A DNA stretch of 64,000 nt from Halobacteriovorax sp. GB3. Lineage in GTDB: Bacteria; Bdellovibrionota; Bacteriovoracia; Bacteriovoracales; Bacteriovoracaceae. Below are positions 6,790 to 12,147 of this stretch, piece after piece. The translations under genes were made by a program, and so were the position numbers. Position 1 is the stretch's first letter. Each line of letters opens with the position of its first letter. Location: contig NZ_JAQSLN010000002.1 in NCBI RefSeq assembly GCF_028649655.1, positions 1 to 64,000 on the forward strand. Direction: 5' to 3'. Below the pieces are notes generated by a model. It was not told the origin of the DNA and did not search any database. It saw nothing but the letters and a program-made list of their open reading frames with translations.

Positions 6790-7614
6790 ATGAGTAATAC
6801 GCAACTGAGAATTATATCTGCAGCTGTAATGGCACTAATTGTGTCTATTTGTTTGTTTCTTGGTGAGAAAACGACATTATTATTTATAATGGTTGCCGGA
6901 GTTTTATCAACGGATGAAATTTACTGTAACTTTTTAAAGAAAAAGAGATTTGGTGGACTGTACTTTGTTTCACAAGCACTCTTTGCTGCACCTTTCATTT
7001 ATTTTAATTTTATCTCAGATAATGGAGAAGCATTCGATCACTTTATTTTGTCTTCTCTCGTATTAAACTTTTTTCTTATTTATTATCTCTTCTTTATGAA
7101 AATGAGCTCGAGAAATGTCATAAAAGTAATGACGAAGGCTCCATTCTTAGCAGGTATAGTTCTCTTGCTACCATTTATGTCGCTTACAGCTTTGTTTAGT
7201 TCTGAAAAGTGGCTTTCTTGGATTGCTGTAATTTTACTTGTGAATTTTGGAATGGACACTGGGGCTTGGTTTTTTGGAAAAAACTTCGGTAAGAGAAAAT
7301 TATGGCCGAGTGTAAGTCCAAAGAAAACGGTCGAAGGGCTGCTTGGAGGTATGCTTACTTCTTCAGTTCTCGGTGGTTTAGCCTTTTACTTTCTTTTTGA
7401 AAGATCAGCTTTTTTTGTTTGGCCATTGTTCTTTATGCTTGGTGGTGTATCTCAGCTCGGAGATTTGGTACAATCTAAGCTGAAAAGGCAATTTGGAATT
7501 AAAGATAGTTCTTCTCTAATTCCAGGTCATGGTGGAGTTTACGACAGAATTGATAGCTTGCTTTTTCTGTCACCATTTTTTGTTTGGGCCTTGAAGGCCG
7601 CAGGAAGAATTTAG
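6790..7614 (+). CDS. cdsA: Phosphatidate cytidylyltransferase (CDP-diglyceride synthase)
   Basis: CdsA converts phosphatidic acid and CTP to CDP-diacylglycerol, the precursor of bacterial phospholipids. The 274-residue protein is a polytopic membrane protein with about seven or eight hydrophobic segments. It carries the signature near its C-terminus: SPKKTVEGLLGG, then QLGDLVQSKLKR and the active-site stretch KDSSSLIPGHGGVYDRIDS. It supplies the substrate for PssA (10458). In many bacteria dxr lies between cdsA and rseP; here it is absent and rseP follows 11 bases on. Confidence 0.95.
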   Translation: MSNTQLRIISAAVMALIVSICLFLGEKTTLLFIMVAGVLSTDEIYCNFLKKKRFGGLYFVSQALFAAPFIYFNFISDNGEAFDHFILSSLVLNFFLIYYLFFMKMSSRNVIKVMTKAPFLAGIVLLLPFMSLTALFSSEKWLSWIAVILLVNFGMDTGAWFFGKNFGKRKLWPSVSPKKTVEGLLGGMLTSSVLGGLAFYFLFERSAFFVWPLFFMLGGVSQLGDLVQSKLKRQFGIKDSSSLIPGHGGVYDRIDSLLFLSPFFVWALKAAGRI

Positions 7615-7625
7615 GATAGATTTTT

Positions 7626-9200
7626 ATGATAGAAAAAATTGGAATTTTTGTTTTATTTTTAGGTCCACTTGTATTTTTTCACGAGCTTGGACACTTCTTT
7701 TTTGCAAGACTCTTTGGAGTTAGAGTAGAGGTTTTCTCTATTGGTTTTGGGCCGAAGCTTTTTTCTTTCAAAAAAGGTGATACTCAATACGCAGTTTCAT
7801 TAATTCCACTTGGTGGATACGTTAAAATGTATGGAGATGATCCATTTAACAAAGACGCTGTACCTGAAGAAGAAAGAAAATACAGCTTTAACCATAAGAG
7901 TAAGTGGGCGAGATTTTGGATTGTATTTGGTGGTCCTCTCGCTAACTTTATCCTTGCTTACTTTTTATTTTTCTCACTTTTTCTCAGTGGAGAAAGAGTT
8001 CCAGAAGTTAAAATCGGAGCAGTTCCAAATACTTCAGTAGTATATAGTTTAGGTGTTCGCTCCGGTGATGTTTTAGCTCAAATCAATGACAAAGTTGTTA
8101 CGGGGCCAAGTGATGTTGCTTTGGTTGCAACAAGTGATATTGATACGATTGCTGTTCAAAGACTTAGTAAAAGAATTGAACTAAAGATAAATATGAAAGG
8201 CGAAGATTTTCTAAAAGCTTTTATGAAATTTCCTCCGTTTACTTTAAGAAGACCAATCGTTTCTGATACCGATGGACAGATGTACTACCTTTCTACAAGT
8301 GATCAGAAAGTCGATTGGAATTTCTCGCTTGAAGAAATAGCTTTGGCCCAAATTAAGAGCCTTTATATGGTTAAACTTCCAAAGGAGGTAGACCTTTCTC
8401 AAAAGGATTTAGGACCAGCGAAGTTTGAATCGTCTCCACTTAATATCGAGTACACAAATAATGAAGAATTCTATTCTGCCCTTCAACAAAAGGGACTCTA
8501 TACAATCGATATGATTGTTAAGTCCGTATCAATGAAGTCACCTGCAGATAGAGCAGGGATCTCGGCCAATGATATTATCTTGGCGCTTAATGGTCAGAAA
8601 ATTTATAGCTTTGAAACATTGAGAACGACGCTTCAAAAAATAGACTCTAATTCAGTCAAAGTTCAAACATTGAAATCCAATGGAGACAGAAGAGAATATG
8701 AGTTAATACCAGATAAGAAGATGATTGAAGATCAAGAAGTGAAACTTATTGGTGTTTATAGTAATGGTGCCTTTAATGGTGTGAGATTCATTGATACTCC
8801 ATCAAAAGGATTCGTTAATTCATTTATGATGTCGTTTCCTAAAACATGGGAGACTATGGGCAAAACGCTAGAGGGTTTTGGGAAGCTTATCTCTGGAGAA
8901 GTTTCTGTTAAAAATATTGGTGGTCCAATTGCTATTGGTAAAGTTGCATCGGATTCATTTAATACGAGTTTAACTTACTTCTTTCAGTTAATGGCCTTAT
9001 TTAGTGTTCACTTAGGAATTATTAACCTTTTTCCAATACCTGTTTTAGATGGTGGACACATTATGTTTATTTTTCTAGAAATCGTTAATAGAGGACCTCT
9101 TTCTCGTAGGAAAATGGAAATTGCTCAGCAGATGGGGCTTTCAGTTCTTCTTATGCTTATGATTGGGGCGATTTTTAATGATTTCTCGAGATTCTTTTAA
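7626..9200 (+). CDS. rseP: RIP metalloprotease RseP
   Basis: RseP is a site-2 zinc protease that cuts anti-sigma factors and signal-peptide remnants within the membrane. The zinc motif HELGH is at residues 19-23 in the first membrane segment. The second metal motif PIPVLDGGHIMF is near residues 467-478. Two PDZ-like regions lie between them (around 140-190 and 290-370). At 524 residues it is longer than the roughly 450 usual, because of extra sequence between the PDZ regions (about residues 195-285). The stop overlaps the tsaB start (TAATG). Confidence 0.94.
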   Translation: MIEKIGIFVLFLGPLVFFHELGHFFFARLFGVRVEVFSIGFGPKLFSFKKGDTQYAVSLIPLGGYVKMYGDDPFNKDAVPEEERKYSFNHKSKWARFWIVFGGPLANFILAYFLFFSLFLSGERVPEVKIGAVPNTSVVYSLGVRSGDVLAQINDKVVTGPSDVALVATSDIDTIAVQRLSKRIELKINMKGEDFLKAFMKFPPFTLRRPIVSDTDGQMYYLSTSDQKVDWNFSLEEIALAQIKSLYMVKLPKEVDLSQKDLGPAKFESSPLNIEYTNNEEFYSALQQKGLYTIDMIVKSVSMKSPADRAGISANDIILALNGQKIYSFETLRTTLQKIDSNSVKVQTLKSNGDRREYELIPDKKMIEDQEVKLIGVYSNGAFNGVRFIDTPSKGFVNSFMMSFPKTWETMGKTLEGFGKLISGEVSVKNIGGPIAIGKVASDSFNTSLTYFFQLMALFSVHLGIINLFPIPVLDGGHIMFIFLEIVNRGPLSRRKMEIAQQMGLSVLLMLMIGAIFNDFSRFF

Positions 9201-9808
9201 TGAGTGAAAAATATTTATTTCTAGATACATCTAAAGACTTAACAATTGGACTTCTCTGCTCGAAGGGAAGTTGGTTGGAGTTTAAAACGTATAGTGGTGT
9301 TAAAAGTTCGCAAATCATCCATGCTGAGATTGATGAGATCCTTTTAGCTGCCGATTTAGATATATCTAAGATAGATGGAATTATCTCCGCTGCTGGTCCA
9401 GGATCTTATACGGGTATGAGAGTCTCTGAGGGTTTAGCGCAAGTTCTTTCATGGCAAGGTATACCTGTTTTTGGCTTTTACCACTTCGAATTGCCCCAGA
9501 TCTTTGGGGAAAAAGAAGGACTGTGGGTAGCAAGAGCATTTAAGGGTGAATACTTTATTTATTCTTGGAAAGAAAATCATGTTGAAAAATCTTTGATTCT
9601 AGGGGATCAGCTCTCTGAGAAGTTAGGACAAGCTCTGCCATGTTACACACACTTTTCTGATGATTTAACAGACTATGATCTTAAGTTTACGAGCGATTTG
9701 GTAAAGAATAACCCCGATTTATTATTAACGCACGTCGTAGGGAAATCATTAAGAAGAGGGCCATACTATTATCGTTCAATAGAAGAAGAATTTAGTCCAT
9801 CCAAATGA
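9200..9808 (+). CDS. tsaB: tRNA threonylcarbamoyladenosine biosynthesis protein TsaB
   Basis: TsaB partners TsaD and TsaE to make t6A37 on ANN-decoding tRNAs. The 202-residue ASKHA-fold protein opens with YLFLDTSKDLTIGL and carries the hallmark GPGSYTGMR near residues 65-73, followed by GLAQVLSWQGIPVFGF. The C-terminal half is divergent and short, as is common for TsaB. It starts on the last base of the rseP stop, so it is translationally coupled. Confidence 0.9.
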   Translation: MSEKYLFLDTSKDLTIGLLCSKGSWLEFKTYSGVKSSQIIHAEIDEILLAADLDISKIDGIISAAGPGSYTGMRVSEGLAQVLSWQGIPVFGFYHFELPQIFGEKEGLWVARAFKGEYFIYSWKENHVEKSLILGDQLSEKLGQALPCYTHFSDDLTDYDLKFTSDLVKNNPDLLLTHVVGKSLRRGPYYYRSIEEEFSPSK

Positions 9809-9843: not shown

Positions 9844-10455
9844 ATGACATTTTCATACTTACCCAAAGTAGTACATTGGGTTTTTTTATTATTTACTCTT
9901 TTTATTCTGTTCTTTTCATTTAAGGCAGCATTTCTCATTTTTCTTCTTTATACATTGGTAGTGTTTCTTTTTAGAAAGAGAAAAATTTATTACAAAGATG
10001 ATCAAATTACGACGTCTGGTTTGGTGTTTTCACCAGTGACGGGAAAGATTGTTGATATTGATGAGAATGAAGAGACGTTAAATATTAAGCTTAAAAGTTT
10101 TCCATGGAATGAGATGGGAATACACATGCCTCTTACTGGGGAAGTCAAAGATGTTTCTCGTGAAAAAGGCGTTGTCGATCTCGCTTCTAATTTCCCTGGG
10201 AGAGTTGCAAAAGTATCGTTAGAAGGAAAAGAGAAAGATCTCATAGAGCTTTCTTTTGGAAAATCTATATTTGGCGGTCGCCCACAATTAATGGTTGCAC
10301 CAGGAGATAGGGGACGTCGACAAGTTAATATTGGTTTTATGCCATTAGGTGGAACTGTTGAACTTCGCCTGCCGAAAAATTGCGACTTAATGGTTAAAGT
10401 TGGTGATGAGTTAAAGGCGGCGGAGTCTGTTGTTGTTGGATTAAAGAGGAAATAA
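9844..10455 (+). CDS. Phosphatidylserine decarboxylase-like protein, probably catalytically inactive
   Basis: The 203-residue protein has two N-terminal membrane segments and a C-terminal domain that I align by eye to short PSD proenzymes. SPVTG (63-67) matches SPADG, PLTGEV (96-101) matches the P-x-x-G segment after the family's HVNR, and PLGGTVELRLP (167-177) matches FGSRVDVYLP/LGST. PSD makes phosphatidylethanolamine with a pyruvoyl group formed by self-cleavage at Gly-Ser. Here that Ser is Gly170, the SPADG Asp is Thr66, and the HVNR His is not clearly kept. It lies three bases before pssA. A lipid-binding or PssA-regulating role is inference; an active enzyme looks unlikely. Confidence 0.65.
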   Translation: MTFSYLPKVVHWVFLLFTLFILFFSFKAAFLIFLLYTLVVFLFRKRKIYYKDDQITTSGLVFSPVTGKIVDIDENEETLNIKLKSFPWNEMGIHMPLTGEVKDVSREKGVVDLASNFPGRVAKVSLEGKEKDLIELSFGKSIFGGRPQLMVAPGDRGRRQVNIGFMPLGGTVELRLPKNCDLMVKVGDELKAAESVVVGLKRK

Positions 10456-10457
10456 AA

Positions 10458-11216
10458 ATGATTTTAGATACACCAAAGAAGGTAGCCTTCTTTTTACCAA
10501 ATACATTTACTGCTCTCAATATGGGATGTGGTTTTGCTTCAATCATCTTTTCTTGGAAAGGTGATTTTCTAAGTGCTTGTACTATTTTATTACTTGGAGC
10601 AATCTTTGACTCTGTTGATGGGAGAGTTGCTAGAATGACAGGAACTCAATCTCAATTTGGAGAACAATTTGATTCTCTAAGTGATTTGATTTCATTTGGT
10701 GCGGCTCCTTCATTTATGGCCTATAATTATTTTTTAGCTGACTATGGAAGGCTTGGGATCGTTGTTGCCTTTATTTATTTGTTATGTGGAGCTTTAAGAT
10801 TAGCGCGATTCAATGCTAATATCACGAAAGTGTCTTCTGATTATTTCCAAGGCTTACCTATTCCTGGAGCTGCGTTAGGTTTAATCGGTTATGTTCTGAT
10901 TCATTTAGAAATTGAAAGTTTGAGAACTGTGAAGGTCATCTCGATTGCTTACGTACTCTTTTATTCTTTCTTAATGATTTCAAATATTCCATTTAATTCA
11001 TTTAAAAACTCAAACTGGGTTAAAAAATATAAGAAGGCGGTATTCTTTATTATTCTTCTTATTATTGGTCTTGTGATTTCTTATACTAAGTATATGGTCG
11101 TTACGCTTATTACGACTTATGTTGCATTTAGCTTAATCTATTTCTTTAAAAATAAAGGTAAGTTCGAGCACATCTTTGAATGGAGTAACGATAATGAAGA
11201 CGAAGAAGATTCTTAA
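10458..11216 (+). CDS. pssA: CDP-diacylglycerol-serine O-phosphatidyltransferase
   Basis: This enzyme of the CDP-alcohol phosphatidyltransferase family joins CDP-diacylglycerol and serine to make phosphatidylserine. The 252-residue membrane protein begins with the type-II motif FFLPNTFTALNMGCGF and has the DGxxAR(x8)GxxxDxxxD active site as FDSVDGRVARMTG, then GEQFDSLSDL. About six to seven membrane helices follow, then an acidic tail. It uses the product of cdsA in the same operon. AGAGGAAA precedes the ATG. Confidence 0.95.
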   Translation: MILDTPKKVAFFLPNTFTALNMGCGFASIIFSWKGDFLSACTILLLGAIFDSVDGRVARMTGTQSQFGEQFDSLSDLISFGAAPSFMAYNYFLADYGRLGIVVAFIYLLCGALRLARFNANITKVSSDYFQGLPIPGAALGLIGYVLIHLEIESLRTVKVISIAYVLFYSFLMISNIPFNSFKNSNWVKKYKKAVFFIILLIIGLVISYTKYMVVTLITTYVAFSLIYFFKNKGKFEHIFEWSNDNEDEEDS

Positions 11217-12147
11217 ATTAAGTTCTCTCTTGTTAGTGCTTGCCTGTAGTGCCTACGCTGACATGGGACAATCTCTCGAAGGACAGAAAGATTATTCTGA
11301 GTTTGAAAAATCTCTTCAAGATGTTGAAGGAGAATCTCATCTTTACAATAAAGAGAAGAAAGGCAGTTCATATTCTAAGTATAAAAAGAATTCACCTTTC
11401 TTGTTTGGAACGAAACAAAAAGAAGCTAATCCAAAGCTTAATGGAAAAGCACATTATGTTTTAGGAACGATTGCAGCTCCTGAAGTTTATAAAGACTTTA
11501 GTAACGAAGAAATTATGAAAGCTCTCTATGATAAGGGTGACAGAGCTTTTTCTATTTCATATTTCTCTGACTCATTTGATTATCAAGATGATACGGGAGT
11601 TTTTTCTAATACCTACGAAGCTGATTCTGCCGATTCTATAAAAGGTGGATTGCTTATGTTTAACTGGCAAAATTATTATACGAAACGTTTCCTAAGTCCT
11701 TTTTGGGGTGCGGGTGCTGGTCTTAGTTACAATACGGGTCATGGCCGTTTTGCAAATGGCTCTAAAAGTAGGGCGGCATTTAAGCTATGGACAGTTCCTG
11801 TTGATTTATACGTAGGTACGGATCTTTCTCTCGGTAAATATATGAAGCTTACTGTTTTTGGCGGTCCTTCTGTTATGGGGATTTGGCAAAATAGAGATGA
11901 TAAAGAAGATGGAGATCCGAAAAAGAATAAGCGCCAAATAAGTCCTGGTTATATGGGAACAGCTAAGCTTTCTATTAATTTTTCGAGAATGTCTGATAAC
12001 TATGCTTTTAGACTTTATCAGTTGAGTAATATTTCGAATCTTTCTATGAATATTGAAGCCCGTCACCATAGTTATAATAAGTTTCAGGATGATTTCAGCA
12101 TCTCTGGGACATCTTTTGGTTTAGGTTTTACATTTGAATTTCTATAA
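11194..12147 (+). CDS. Exported protein, probable outer-membrane barrel
   Basis: I do not recognise the family. I chose the ATG at 11194 over an in-frame TTG at 11176: GGAG (11182-11185) is well placed for it, and the product then starts with a clean signal peptide (MKTKKILKLSSLLLVLACSAYA). The mature protein has a lysine-rich N-terminal region. It then alternates polar and aromatic residues (for example GAGAGLSYNTGHGRF, YVGTDLSLGKYM) and ends GLGFTFEFL, as outer-membrane beta-barrels do. It overlaps pssA by 23 bases and truA by 14, so it belongs to this operon. Its function is unknown. Confidence 0.75.
   Translation: MKTKKILKLSSLLLVLACSAYADMGQSLEGQKDYSEFEKSLQDVEGESHLYNKEKKGSSYSKYKKNSPFLFGTKQKEANPKLNGKAHYVLGTIAAPEVYKDFSNEEIMKALYDKGDRAFSISYFSDSFDYQDDTGVFSNTYEADSADSIKGGLLMFNWQNYYTKRFLSPFWGAGAGLSYNTGHGRFANGSKSRAAFKLWTVPVDLYVGTDLSLGKYMKLTVFGGPSVMGIWQNRDDKEDGDPKKNKRQISPGYMGTAKLSINFSRMSDNYAFRLYQLSNISNLSMNIEARHHSYNKFQDDFSISGTSFGLGFTFEFL

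Follow-up and report, generated by a model that had tools for sequence, protein, structure and literature searches.

psdL, encoded directly before pssA in Halobacteriovorax sp. GB3, is a phosphatidylserine decarboxylase relative that has lost its catalytic triad

Mutagenesis of the E. coli phosphatidylserine decarboxylase (PSD) has shown that self-cleavage is driven by D90/D142, H144 and S254 and that decarboxylation is lost when H144 is mutated (PMC7952604), and in the malarial PSD an Ala at any residue of the Asp/His/Ser triad abolishes processing, which occurs in cis only (PMC10172927). We found no described PSD pseudoenzyme in the literature that we searched, and a search for work on phosphatidylserine (PS) metabolism in Bacteriovorax/Bdellovibrio returned nothing informative. 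Here we describe psdL (9844..10455, + strand), a gene within a window of 64,000 nucleotides from Halobacteriovorax sp. GB3 (contig NZ_JAQSLN010000002.1) that is read without interruption from ATG to TAA as a protein of 203 aa. With short PSDs (PRK05305 / AS_decarb type) it shares the N-terminal hydrophobic segment, the SPxxG motif, the C-terminal strand motifs, the PF02666 domain and the position before pssA, whereas it lacks their triad Asp, His and Ser and their ARRI and HVNR motifs. With long PSDs (PRK00723 type) it has the Pfam domain in common; unlike psdL, these keep DYHR and FGGST within a 300-aa architecture.

Membership of the PSD family is supported by profile searches. PF02666 matches psdL with 26.3 bits (E 7.1e-6), above the gathering cut-off of 22, and matches 20 of 25 psdL family members tested at E 0.01 or better, while the NCBIfam short-PSD models recognize psdL at E 2e-11 with scores far under their equivalog cut-offs. 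For the short-PSD equivalog NF003678 it reaches 43.5 bits, well short of the 225 that mark a functional PSD, whereas the same model gives 251 and 255 bits to two triad-intact short PSDs of sister families. Because the PF02666 gathering score is reached and the NF003678 score is low, we regard psdL as PSD-related yet strongly diverged, that is, as a member of the PSD family by descent that falls outside the score defining functional PSDs. Searching PDB sequences with the psdL protein or profile returned no more than weak matches, unrelated ones and short ones to biotin carriers. The nearest named relative is in Bacteriovorax sp. BSW11_IV (56% identity), with the others coming from Bacteriovorax/Halobacteriovorax isolates and MAGs.

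The surrounding genes are all on the + strand. Upstream lie cdsA (phosphatidate cytidylyltransferase, 6790..7614; NF008635 E 4e-31), whose product makes the PssA substrate, an rseP-like membrane protease gene (7626..9200), a conserved neighbor named from its N-terminal HELGHF zinc motif, and a tsaB-like gene (9200..9808; PF00814 match). Downstream follows pssA (CDP-diacylglycerol--serine O-phosphatidyltransferase, 10458..11216), which is the only TIGR00473 match over cut-off in the genome (141 bits; cut-off 107). Nearly all family loci of sufficient length show the succession rseP-tsaB-psdL-pssA. A preliminary description of this DNA had read psdL as an intact, in-frame, PSD-like gene three bases from pssA; the uninterrupted reading frame and the PF02666 match, from a search which that description had proposed, agree with this, but the gap between the co-oriented genes is in fact two bases (TAA at 10453-10455, ATG at 10458). 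The gene after pssA (11176-12147, +), whose start overlaps the pssA end, is predicted to encode a Bd0486-type outer membrane beta-barrel (38.7 bits, under the cut-off of 370); many family genomes have this gene placed between pssA and truA.

We scored the triad columns in 115 psdL orthologues and in 20 triad-bearing short PSDs from sister families. In psdL the SPADG motif reads SPVTG (residues 63-67, 10030..10044, +) with Thr66 opposite the triad Asp, Met91 (10114..10116, +) takes the place of the triad His of HVNR, and within PLGGT (residues 167-171, 10342..10356, +) Gly170 lies opposite the Ser that is cleaved to become the pyruvoyl group. The substitutions that the preliminary description had assigned by eye (Ser to Gly170, Asp to Thr66, His out of register) are thus borne out, with a Gly and not a Ser at the psdL cleavage point. 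The sole nearby His, H94, lies three residues later in the HVNR Arg column and, judged by spacing to the invariant Pro, matches the place of E. coli His147, which is largely dispensable for cleavage (PMC7952604). Across the orthologues the cleavage column holds Gly in 112, Ser in 2 and Ala in 1, and both proteins with Ser there have lost the Gly just before it; Asp is retained in 5/115 and His in 6/115, while all three residues are present in 20/20 of the active short PSDs. Across the family SPADG is accordingly replaced by SPVN/TG and FGS by FGG, and the His of HVNR is missing. Not one of the 115 orthologues in this survey, likewise proposed in the preliminary description, carries the full triad, and 103 are devoid of any triad residue. 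Because the pattern recurs across 115 orthologues it is not a product of chance, and triad loss is a clade-wide state. Since the Ser that would become the pyruvoyl group is absent, it can be firmly inferred from the established mechanism that psdL would stay uncut and form no such group.

A profile search placed psdL in 120 of 129 family genomes and in 43 of 48 genera. It is absent, with tsaB directly before pssA, from at least five genomes (loci L085, L088, L091, L092 and L094), and as these keep both pssA and a long PSD the role of psdL is dispensable. In genome G004, scored as lacking psdL, an ORF of 193 aa that the profile missed lies between tsaB and pssA (L096:2274-2855, -); it has SPxxG, is otherwise barely recognizable, and represents an extreme of psdL divergence. 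When the psdL family profile was run against the wider phylum it matched sister-family short PSDs with E values from 1e-25 to 3e-8; its matches outside the family are short PSDs, and the 20 that were fetched all have the full triad. In a quick tree a branch supported at 100 sets the active short PSDs apart. A search for plasmid-borne relatives found none. In the sister families an active short psd lies directly before pssA at 20/20 loci, and one of these (L077) has the same cdsA-rseP-tsaB-psd-pssA order as the window together with a complete triad; for these reasons we consider psdL to be a degenerate orthologue of the ancestral short psd of a psd-pssA operon. The simplest history would be a single ancestral operon of this kind, in which a long PSD takes over and the short copy loses its triad once. 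Other families with long PSDs have pssA without a short psd before it in the loci that we examined, suggesting that a redundant short psd is usually lost; here it was kept.

Taken together these observations make a non-catalytic PSD pseudoenzyme a well-supported reading of psdL; its descent, the loss of its triad, its constraint (see below), its operon position and the presence of another PSD in the genome are directly shown. At the base of the family a separate long PSD would have carried decarboxylation, and in the short copy the self-cleavage Ser would have been replaced by Gly, with the Asp and the His lost as well. Without a pyruvoyl group the protein would remain uncut, membrane-anchored and non-catalytic, and could have been kept under selection through a binding role, gained or retained, in the PS/PE pathway. 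As its likeliest role it would, from a place in the membrane beside PssA, bind PS and/or PssA and so tune PssA output or pass PS on, a proposal to which we give about an even chance. We infer an absence of cleavage in the cell, the binding of lipid or of a partner, and PssA as that partner. PssA is favored because the two genes are adjacent, co-oriented and only two bases apart; since that position is inherited from an ancestral operon with an active psd, however, adjacency is weaker evidence for an interaction than it would otherwise be. A broader version, in which the dead PSD is now a dedicated regulatory subunit of phospholipid synthesis that controls PssA or the long PSD family-wide, we hold somewhat more tentatively.

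The preliminary description had also called for a search for a second, active psd, and one was found: the only other PF02666 match in the genome is a 299-aa long PSD 67 kb downstream (G000:C2:77023), whose motifs DYHRYHYP and FGGST keep the DYH motif and the cleavage Ser. Some PF02666 match is present in 127/129 family genomes, most of which have a long PSD above 140 bits, and the DYHR and G(G/A)ST motifs are intact in the aligned family long PSDs. The long PSD is likely the working decarboxylase. At the E. coli Asp90 site, the long PSDs of the family and those examined from five sister families (L001:1231-2127, equivalent to the C2:77023-77568 region of the same genome, and L033-L062) have a Glu in the contexts SEARY, CEARY and AEGR, with DYH and GGST kept; these proteins may still mature, because E. 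coli can use Asp142 instead. At the cleavage site some long PSDs have FGAST instead of FGGST (L054, L040 (genomes G025, G103), L207 and L213). Three genomes without psdL encode PSD-domain proteins of 511-541 aa (L249:1353-2888(-), L250:665-2290(+) and L251:1385-2968(-)) with a hydrophobic signal-like start and with DYH and FGGST/S kept, possibly exported PSD relatives, and genome G002 has a further 599-aa PSD-domain variant (L252:169-1968).

The main rival to the PssA reading is that psdL acts as a prozyme-like partner of this long PSD, forming a complex that aids its maturation or presents PS to it. By analogy this has a precedent in another pyruvoyl-dependent decarboxylase, the trypanosome AdoMetDC (PMC5201418), and the alpha-beta units of E. 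coli PSD assemble as a dimer (PMC7952604); the Glu at the Asp90 site of the aligned long PSDs would also fit. Nevertheless psdL derives from the short type and not from a duplication of the long PSD, no psdL precedes pssA at the examined loci of sister families whose long PSD bears the same Glu, and genomes without psdL still have the long PSD. A distance-matrix partial correlation links psdL more closely to the long PSD (0.46) than to pssA (0.20), with tsaB and the long PSD at -0.03, but branch-wise rate covariation did not repeat this preference, and psdL covaried with PssA no more strongly than with the long PSD or with tsaB, an unlikely partner. Because the branch-wise test disagreed and tsaB scored as high, we give rate covariation no weight. 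The earlier suggestion of a pseudoenzyme that controls PssA or handles PS is upheld in its pseudoenzyme part, through the absent triad, the selection on the gene, its place beside pssA and the separate PSD in the genome. The proposed role is plausible, and rate covariation did not single out PssA. On balance we consider the partnership with the long PSD unlikely, at roughly one chance in four.

Somewhat less probable still is that psdL is a conserved membrane protein outside the PS/PE pathway, such as a scaffold or an envelope or regulatory partner, built on a duplicated hybrid motif fold. An AlphaFold2 model built from 25 family members has a mean pLDDT of 91.1 and consists of two N-terminal helices and a beta domain; the helices, at residues 8-22 and 26-42 (9865..9969, +), are predicted to lie in the membrane from their hydrophobic sequence, with pLDDT 96-98 in a block at residues 11-40, and active short PSDs likewise start with a hydrophobic stretch. 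The best PDB matches of the model are IIA-Glc (Z 14.5) and LytM/M23 domains, including SpoIIQ (Z 8.6) and EnvC (Z 8.0), as compared to a Z of 7.9 for E. coli PSD (111 aligned residues, rmsd 3.3 A), the comparison there being with the cleaved beta chain. We take the duplicated hybrid motif fold to be common to the psdL model, PSD, IIA-Glc and LytM/M23. IIA-Glc and the degenerate LytM proteins act by partner binding. These being the closest solved folds speaks for a role elsewhere, as do the neighbors rseP and tsaB, which are not lipid genes. However, profile and synteny link psdL to short PSDs, and it is located between cdsA and pssA. Moreover, PSD chains in the PDB end at the cleavage site, so that the last strands are left unaligned and the E. 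coli PSD Z is lowered. The ranking of IIA-Glc over PSD is uncontrolled, and we do not read it as evidence against PSD descent. Nor does the psdL family have any conserved His, such as the active-site His residues of IIA-Glc and M23/LytM proteins, the H94 column being Tyr in 51%.

Could psdL still decarboxylate by another route, for example with Thr171 as the nucleophile or with help in trans? A Thr follows the Gly170 column in about half of the family and a Ser in 10/115, but this position varies (T, K, S, I and other residues), and the triad Asp and His are likewise absent. Conservation is highest at Pro64, Gly67, Pro96, Gly154, Asp155, Gly164, Gly169 and Gly170, as well as at Arg44, where the second helix ends, and no conserved side chain of a catalytic type is left; that the only strongly conserved polar residues are Asp155 and Arg44, the rest being mainly Gly and Pro, argues against a new active site. 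We therefore regard continued activity as very improbable. Among 39 computable closest pairs the psdL dN/dS has a median of 0.067 (range 0.03-0.11, maximum 0.114), the tsaB and pssA medians being 0.128 and 0.047, respectively. psdL is under strong purifying selection and hence is not decaying, which agrees with the earlier view that the gene is maintained. That it is a decaying pseudogene, the remnant of an old psd, is the least credible reading of all, since despite the lost triad, outright absence from at least five genomes and long branches in some lineages, the ORF is intact across most of the family, the Gly at the cleavage site is fixed over deep divergence and dN/dS values of 0.03-0.11, with a median under that of tsaB, already contradict it.

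Returning to psdL as a non-catalytic component beside PssA, we note that it is no stray mutant, as its state was apparently fixed once, is family-wide, and adjoins the gene for the substrate-making enzyme. It thus offers a tractable case of a redundant enzyme turned into a non-catalytic component, for which the intact sister-family orthologues at the same locus provide a before-and-after comparison, and it bears on the control of bacterial PS-to-PE flux; automatic annotation may call it an active decarboxylase. Like the trypanosome AdoMetDC prozyme, psdL would be related to a pyruvoyl-dependent decarboxylase, catalytically dead and retained alongside an active relative (PMC5201418), although the prozyme belongs to another enzyme family, is a paralogue of its partner and has been shown to activate it allosterically, whereas the partner of psdL is putative. 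From the degenerate LytM regulators EnvC and SpoIIQ and from IIA-Glc it is separated by other cellular partners, and neither synteny nor significant sequence similarity was found to link them, yet the psdL model has in common with these partner-binding proteins the duplicated hybrid motif fold.
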